From the NCBI GenBank assembly GCA_003223295.1, contig QHYM01000100.1, positions 48,510 to 112,509 on the forward strand: a DNA stretch of 64,000 bases, read 5' to 3'. Under the pieces are notes generated by a model. It was not told the origin of the DNA. It ran no database searches and worked only from the letters and a program-made list of their open reading frames with translations. Shown here in pieces: positions 49,496 to 50,826 of this stretch (position 1 is the first letter of the stretch; each line of letters opens with the position of its first letter). This stretch comes from Acidobacteriota bacterium. GTDB lineage: Bacteria > Acidobacteriota > Terriglobia > Acidiferrales > UBA7541. Both the position numbers and the translations under genes were made by a program.

Positions 49496-49798
49496 ATGGC
49501 AAATGAAGGAACAATTCGCATTCATCGGTCCATCGCAGGCACCGGTGCGGCTTTCCGCGTCAGCTTCGTGCCTTACGATGCGGAGGAGGAAAGCGGGGGC
49601 GAGCGCTCATTCCGCGAACTTCAGCAGGTGCGCGCTTTCCTGAAGATGCTCGGGCTGGGAGCGGAGTATATTAAGGATGCTCTTCGTCAGCTTACCGCGG
49701 GTCGTTCGGCTTCGGTGCCGAACGTTTCGCTCTCGGACAAGGCCGTCAAGAGCGCAGGTTTCGTGAATCTCGAAAATCTGGCAAGGAGCAACGGGTAA
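49496..49798 (+). CDS. uncharacterised 100-aa protein encoded inside the isc operon
   Basis: Intact ORF between iscS and iscU with TAATG stop/start overlap to iscU; Cys-free; no family recognised. Confidence 0.85.
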   Translation: MANEGTIRIHRSIAGTGAAFRVSFVPYDAEEESGGERSFRELQQVRAFLKMLGLGAEYIKDALRQLTAGRSASVPNVSLSDKAVKSAGFVNLENLARSNG

Positions 49799-50214
49799 TG
49801 GCATACAGCGAAAAAGTAGTGGATCACTACAACAATCCTCGCAACGTCGGCAGCCTCCCGAAGGAAGATCCCAACGTCGGAACCGGGCTCGTCGGCGCGC
49901 CGGAGTGCGGCGACGTGATGAAGCTGCAGATGAAGATCAACCCGGAGACCCAGGTCATTGAAGAAGCCAAGTTCAAGACCTTCGGCTGCGGGTCGGCCAT
50001 CGCCAGCTCCTCGCTCGCCACCGAATGGGTGAAGGGCAAAACGGTCGAAGAGGCGCTTTCGATCAAGAACACGGACATCGTGCGCGAGCTATCGCTTCCG
50101 CCGGTCAAGATCCACTGCTCCGTGCTCGCTGAAGACGCCATCAAGGCCGCCATCGGCGACTGGAAGAAGAAGCACGGTGCTGAAGTGCCGGCCACCGAAA
50201 AGGCCTCGCACTAA
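49798..50214 (+). CDS. iscU: Fe-S cluster assembly scaffold
   Basis: MAYSEKVVDHYNNPRNVGSL, GAPECGDVMKLQMKI, FKTFGCGSAIASSSLATEWVKGK, LPPVKIHCSVLAEDAIKAAI. Confidence 0.98.
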   Translation: MAYSEKVVDHYNNPRNVGSLPKEDPNVGTGLVGAPECGDVMKLQMKINPETQVIEEAKFKTFGCGSAIASSSLATEWVKGKTVEEALSIKNTDIVRELSLPPVKIHCSVLAEDAIKAAIGDWKKKHGAEVPATEKASH

Positions 50215-50300
50215 GATTTGCTCTGCCGCACGCACCCGCCTCCAATTGCCGGAGCCCAGGGTGACGTGCCTTGTACGGGATTTAGTTTGGAAGAACTGCA

Positions 50301-50428
50301 GCGCTAAGCGCTTTAGAATCAACACTTGCAAGGCGTCTTGGATGTGTTGATTCTAAGCGACTTGCGGTAGATGTAAGTGCTTTTGAATGAACACTTACAC
50401 AAAACCGGGGGGAGGGGGCCACTCCCCC
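50301..50428. repeat. multi-hairpin structured element in the iscU-iscA gap
   Basis: TTAGAATCAACAC(313-325)/GTGTTGATTCTAA(344-356); TGTAAGTG(372-379)/CACTTACA(392-399); GGGGGAG(408-414)/CTCCCCC(422-428) (last three digits, +50000). CTTTAGAATCAACACTTGCA and CTTTTGAATGAACACTTACA are imperfect direct repeats. Confidence 0.8.
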
Positions 50429-50463
50429 ACGTGGAAGGGTCCCAGGCTTGAGAATAATTGAAT

Positions 50464-50826
50464 ATGGCTACTGAAGTTGTAAGCCCGAACATTGCGAAGA
50501 TTCACCTGACCGAGCGCGCGGCGAAGCAGATTCGCCTGCTGCTCGAGAAGGAAGGCGTGTCGCCGGAGGTCGGTGGGCTGCGCGTGGGCGTGCAGGGTGG
50601 TGGCTGTTCCGGCTTGTCTTACGCGATGCGCCTGGATACGCAGGCGCGGGACCGCGACAAAGTTTTCGAGGAGTACGGCGCGCGCATTTTCGTGGACCCG
50701 AAAAGTTTTCTGTACCTGAATGGCACGACGCTGGAGTACGAAGAGACGCTCATGCGCCAGGGATTTGTCTTCCAGAATCCCAACGCGGCGCGGAATTGCG
50801 GCTGCGGCAGCTCTTTTACGGCGTAG
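50464..50826 (+). CDS. iscA: A-type Fe-S carrier protein
   Basis: ITLTERAAKQI-like start; GLRVGVQGGGCSGLSYAM; C-terminal NCGCGSSF. Confidence 0.96.
   Translation: MATEVVSPNIAKIHLTERAAKQIRLLLEKEGVSPEVGGLRVGVQGGGCSGLSYAMRLDTQARDRDKVFEEYGARIFVDPKSFLYLNGTTLEYEETLMRQGFVFQNPNAARNCGCGSSFTA

Follow-up and report, generated by a model that had tools for sequence, protein, structure and literature searches.

The hairpins between iscU and iscA in the 64,000-nt stretch of acidobacterial DNA analyzed here (the window) belong to a single shortened copy of a repeat that had not been annotated before and is scattered through the genomes of Ca. Acidiferrum/Acidoferrum (order Acidoferrales). The feature is probably a decayed copy, truncated at the 5' end, of a dispersed repeat that bears a promoter and occurs mainly in Acidiferrum, and a piece of it was apparently recruited later as the start of IscA in seven species. 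This explanation builds on the dispersal of the repeat, the promoter sequences co-oriented with it, its gain at gapA in a clade that lacks the native gapA promoter, and the descent of the isc copies from a single lineage.

The gap measures 249 nt from the stop codon of iscU (49798–50214, + strand) to the ATG of iscA (50464–50826, + strand; MATEVVSPNIAKIHLTE...), close to the 250 nt originally estimated. The original prediction described three perfect inverted repeats, and these are present at 50313–50325/50344–50356, 50372–50379/50392–50399 and 50408–50414/50422–50428; the first reaches 20 nt with 90% complementarity (50313–50332/50337–50356). A direct repeat shared by the first two hairpins was likewise recovered, over 26 nt with 85% identity (50305–50330/50374–50399). 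The segment 50280–50450 folds with −69.8 kcal/mol vs. a mean of −49.0 kcal/mol after shuffling (z −5.16), and 0 of 200 shuffles were as stable. Thus, the repeats are real, but they are not three independent hairpins: a single 20-nt unit is present three times, and a hairpin of a G-run with a C-run comes after it. Unit U1 (CTTTAGAATCAACACTTGCA, an exact pattern match; 50311–50330, + strand) pairs with the inverted unit U2 (50339–50358, − strand) to give the first hairpin. The second, TGTAAGTG...CACTTACA (50372–50399, + strand), is a small hairpin inside the module of unit U3 (CTTTTGAATGAACACTTACA; 50380–50399, + strand), which holds an ATG (50387), the apparent iscA start in seven relatives. 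The third is formed by the G-run and the C-run at the 3' end of the element (50408–50428, + strand). The whole element spans 50305–50428 (+ strand) and consists of a unit array and a G-run hairpin without a promoter module, as judged from the copies found by BLAST and pattern search in its own genome, its fold (z −5.2) and the lack of a promoter match on the + strand.

When the window's own genome was searched with positions 50290–50450, several further places were found, in line with a mobile repeat, and more copies were gathered by pattern searches with the 20-nt unit, CTTTAGAATSMRCACTTRCA, which is the building block of the family. This genome contains 54 unit matches (29 + 25) with up to three mismatches, against 0 for a reversed-pattern control. 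Since many other copies exist, the outcome that would have spoken against the original prediction, i.e., neither other copies nor covariation, does not apply. The units are arranged in arrays, either in the order +, −, + at offsets of approximately 0, 28, and 69, as in the window, or as direct repeats approximately 40–50 nt apart, and the 3' end of the arrays mostly reads ...ACTTACAAAAAACCGGGGGGAGGGG or a close variant, with a G-run able to form a hairpin. In a set of 121 genomes, high unit numbers were confined to family f1, chiefly genus g1, with 0–101 matches per genome, and the unit was nearly absent elsewhere; the genomes compared are draft MAGs. Public records with exact unit matches are mostly titled gp2 Acidobacteria and Ca. 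Acidiferrum typicum. Related copies thus lie at unrelated loci and are absent from distant taxa, as expected of a dispersed repeat family of Acidiferrum. The family splits into lineage-specific subfamilies. Neither the gap nor any of 20 copies searched matched an Rfam covariance model, and no acidobacterial description of the repeat was found in the open-licence literature. The unit-array architecture is therefore without a match in these sources, in a host group of uncultured soil acidobacteria. That the units code for a conserved peptide was considered and rejected because neither frames nor stops are constant and the ORFs opened by unit ATGs mostly score poorly as coding.

A second, related type of element, TAAGYCCTTTGYTTTGATA...CCGGGGG, often adjoins the first one (upstream of arrays L016, L030, L032, and L037, and at gapA of G008, L424). 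Two records titled Betaproteobacteria, CAJCHZ010000028.1 and CAJCHZ010000052.1 (L133, L136), also carry the repeat; the title looks wrong because the unit coordinates agree with those of G006, a genome assigned to the same genus as the window. Carriage by phages was rejected, as only one IMG/VR contig, IMGVR_UViG_3300005265_000125 (L209), has a single exact unit; the contig is possibly bacterial, or the match fortuitous.

The suggestion that the element is a mobile intergenic repeat is supported by the genome-wide dispersal, by the copy numbers, which swing between sister species (57 in G006 vs. 0 in G032 and 1 in G016; 67 in G012 vs. 4 in G019), and by a clade-specific gain at gapA (see below). 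The lineage-specific subfamilies and the gapA copies represent past gains of copies. Every mappable element of G013, approximately 17, is common to G013 and G028 (~91% identity), so that no present-day hopping of the family is visible. Between these genomes, identity amounts to 93.6% in the units, 84.4% in the spacers, and ~91% in the flanks. An empty site that would give exact ends was not found, nor was a target duplication. Two loci of G013 (L328 and L332) map to one element of G028 (L362) and have different flanks, which suggests a rearrangement at the repeat.

Many arrays are preceded by a sigma70-type promoter on the same strand, identified as a consensus match. With up to two mismatches, such a match was found upstream of 66 of the 181 arrays in all genomes sampled, vs. 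7 on the opposite strand, 1 downstream, and ~5 expected (binomial 4e-13). Within 330 nt upstream of the 37 arrays in G013, there were 22 at the same stringency, vs. 5 on the other strand and ~1 expected. In the same genome, a terminator-like hairpin lies upstream of nine arrays on the + strand and of none on the − strand, and 15 of 34 arrays sit between convergent genes, as called with the analysis' own hexamer scorer, where no gene needs a promoter. Presumably, complete copies include a promoter module, and many copies, including the one at isc, are 5'-truncated. In a complete copy, a sigma70-type promoter would then be followed by a short leader, in many cases containing a terminator-like hairpin, by an array of + and − units, and by a terminal G-run able to form a hairpin.

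The co-orientation of promoters and arrays, the strand bias of the terminators and the arrays in convergent gaps would also suit a multicopy family of small-RNA genes with their own promoters. The units would then be a selected 20-nt RNA module, e.g., protein-binding or base-pairing sites, and fragments of the genes would have been recruited recurrently, as the iscA start codon and the gapA promoter, with the isc copy as a displaced gene fragment. The better conservation of the units than of the spacers and the stable retention between G013 and G028 are consistent with this option. So is the pairing of U1 with U2, which in G013/G028 exceeds that with shuffled partners and is accompanied by compensatory changes between subfamilies. 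However, in the window's own genome (G000) and in G014 and G006, the pairing is no better than with shuffled partners, and with this mixed result, it was rejected as proof of an RNA structure. Moreover, unit number and order vary widely, copy number drops to 0–1 in several congeners, and Rfam holds no corresponding family. Overall, a family of small-RNA genes appears unlikely.

The short intergenic palindromic units in alternating orientation are reminiscent of REP/BIME- or REPIN-type elements mobilized by a RAYT (Y1) transposase, and Y1 genes are present in 29 of 36 genomes. However, the numbers of Y1 genes and units are uncorrelated (rho 0.15, p 0.39), G006 has no Y1 match in spite of its 57 unit matches, and no single palindrome tagged with GTAG or CGTC was seen on reading the copies. 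Hence, mobilization by such a transposase is highly improbable. A MITE was rejected for lack of terminal inverted repeats, the left end (TAAxCC...) and the right end (...AAAAACCGGGGGGAGGGG) not being inverted copies, and a retroposed, SINE-like element because an RVT_1 match is missing from 10 of the 14 genomes in which the unit matches number 40 or more (rho −0.35). The search for a parent transposon or mobilizing enzyme covered Y1 and reverse transcriptase, neither of which had an association in favor of this role.

A gain of a copy is found upstream of gapA. All six members of one clade in the isc-protein tree (G000, G012, G025, G019, G018, and G031; UFboot 79) have a unit array with a G-run end there, followed by a C-run similar to that at isc. 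In the five members with enough upstream sequence, the element has a promoter, TTGACGAAAC...TAAAAT, ~325–353 nt before the start codon. In G012, where the contig is short, no such promoter was found with up to three mismatches, except for a match within the array. The scorable species outside the clade have the native gapA promoter, TTGACTTTT...CATAGCAT or relatives, at about −99 and no array. Thus, the gapA copy is a clade-specific gain, and the promoter was apparently replaced. In G008, an element of the second type lies further upstream of gapA and the native promoter is intact.

Eight species carry the isc element (G000, G012, G014, G006, G025, G018, G019, and G031), and none of the other congeners with data does. 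G000 apart, the last unit of every carrier has its ATG in the reading frame of iscA, and six of these seven species share an identical length of 21 residues up to IHLTE. The N-termini read from this ATG are MNTYTKEGEGVVSAPAIHLTE (G012), MNTYTKTGEGVADVATIHLTE (G014), MNTYTKTGEGVEAPATPAIHLTE (G006), MNTYTKIDGGIPNVAAIHLTE (G025), MNTYAKIEGGLPNVAAIHLTE (G018), MNTYANKEAGIPNVAAVHLTE (G019), and MNTYAKIAEDVANVPAIHLTE (G031), with the pattern MNTY[TA]...IHLTE. Congeners without the element mostly have MATEVxSPNIAKIHLTE, and outgroups begin at or near MIHVTE. As read by eye, the unit ATG is the only ATG, GTG, or TTG before IHLTE, G031 with a further internal GTG excepted; it is not preceded by an evident Shine-Dalgarno sequence. 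Only the ATG-bearing unit of the array is kept in G019 and G031, and this unit plus a remnant in G018. From these sequences, the unit ATG is apparently the most plausible start of iscA in the seven relatives. G000 looks like the state before the fusion because its unit ATG opens a separate uORF that ends before iscA. In the window, this putative uORF (50387–50461, + strand) has 24 codons, MNTYTKPGGGGHSPTWKGPRLENN, and its stop codon ends 2 nt before the ATG of iscA. Elsewhere, in G013, the tail of an element, GTTATGGTTAACCAG (L339), holds an ATG in frame with a coding ORF of 206 aa, a possible second case of start-codon co-option.

In a tree of the copies, those at isc group together in a single clade (0.91), apart from the remaining copies in their genomes, and therefore go back to one event or to exchange between species. 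Independent insertions at isc were rejected because of this clade, with the caveat that it may be favored in part by coding constraint acting on the last unit. The distribution over the species tree is patchy (the six-species clade plus G014 and G006), which requires losses or lateral exchange. Other repeats occupy the same gap in other species: a different dispersed palindrome of the GTAGGGGCGCAGCATGCTGCGCCCC type in G023, G028, G011, G003, and G016 (L074, L069, L075, L079, and L085), and a repeat of the GTCATCCTGAGC...GAAGGATC type in G008 and G030. Unrelated repeats thus seem to have landed in the iscU-iscA gap repeatedly. Between iscS and iscU, there is an ORF of 100 aa (49496–49798 in the window) that is conserved in the genus and had no match at the threshold used in the related genera of the family that were fetched.

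As an alternative, the original prediction proposed an RNA element for attenuation or processing, which would, in cis, uncouple the expression of iscRSU from that of iscA-hscBA-fdx. The window copy does fold strongly, lies in sense orientation inside the operon and has a G/C hairpin. However, more than 20 congeners with the same order of iscU and iscA have no element, the stems are gone in the carriers G018, G019, and G031, and no U-tract follows the G/C hairpin on the + (coding) strand, a terminator-like match being located on the − strand. Furthermore, U1 and U2 of the window's genome pair no better than shuffled partners, Rfam has no match, and the same arrays are found at unrelated loci and in convergent gaps. 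A stem followed by a U-tract and conserved in orthologous operons, the mark of an attenuator or terminator, was thus not found, and such a role is hardly credible, although there may be an attenuator effect specific to the window's own genome.

If the isc feature is a decayed copy of a promoter-bearing repeat, its history may have been as follows. Copies would once have been inserted by a mobilizing machinery, and one landed directly before iscA. Deletions would then have joined the ATG of the last unit to codon 5–8 of iscA, so that the repeat supplies the start codon and the first residues of IscA in seven species. The joining deletion could have used a shared GTC microhomology (...GGGGGTC in the element, GAAGTC in iscA). 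In the window's species, unit and iscA have not been joined, and the uORF, which stops 2 nt short of iscA, could couple the translation of IscA to its own. The isc copy would no longer be mobile; IscA translation would begin within it in seven species, and in that of the window it may act as a leader ORF. Two co-options in housekeeping genes would be traceable: one at IscA, for its start codon and N-terminus, and one at gapA, for its promoter region. As element-free sister species exist for both genes, the states before and after can be compared directly, and with a piece of repeat as the IscA start, scattered "junk" repeats would be seen turning into working parts of genes.

Several known systems resemble the repeat in part. 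BOX repeats are modular small interspersed repeats with internal modules that vary in number, and the acidobacterial repeat shares both traits. Its host and sequence are unrelated to those of the BOX repeats of Streptococcus pneumoniae (PMC3049150), and it has an inverted internal unit and a G-run end. With REP/BIME/REPIN elements and their RAYT transposases (PMC2817692, PMC3116915), it shares short extragenic units, alternating orientation and variable copy number; however, the acidobacterial elements are longer, have a promoter module and no tagged single hairpin, and show no association with Y1 counts. The Correia elements of Neisseria are promoter-bearing MITEs (PMC10969869). Compared by description, they are likewise short dispersed repeats upstream of genes, with sigma70-like promoters, that can be co-transcribed with a neighboring operon, whereas in the acidobacterial repeat no terminal inverted repeats or target duplication were found, and it is built of 20-nt + and − units with a G-run end. 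The Rickettsia palindromic elements (RPE) lie in-frame in genes (PMC10969869) and, as a dispersed palindromic repeat that adds residues to conserved housekeeping proteins, come close to the situation proposed for IscA; in contrast to RPE, the acidobacterial repeat would provide a start codon and an N-terminus at one site, and most of its copies are located outside genes.
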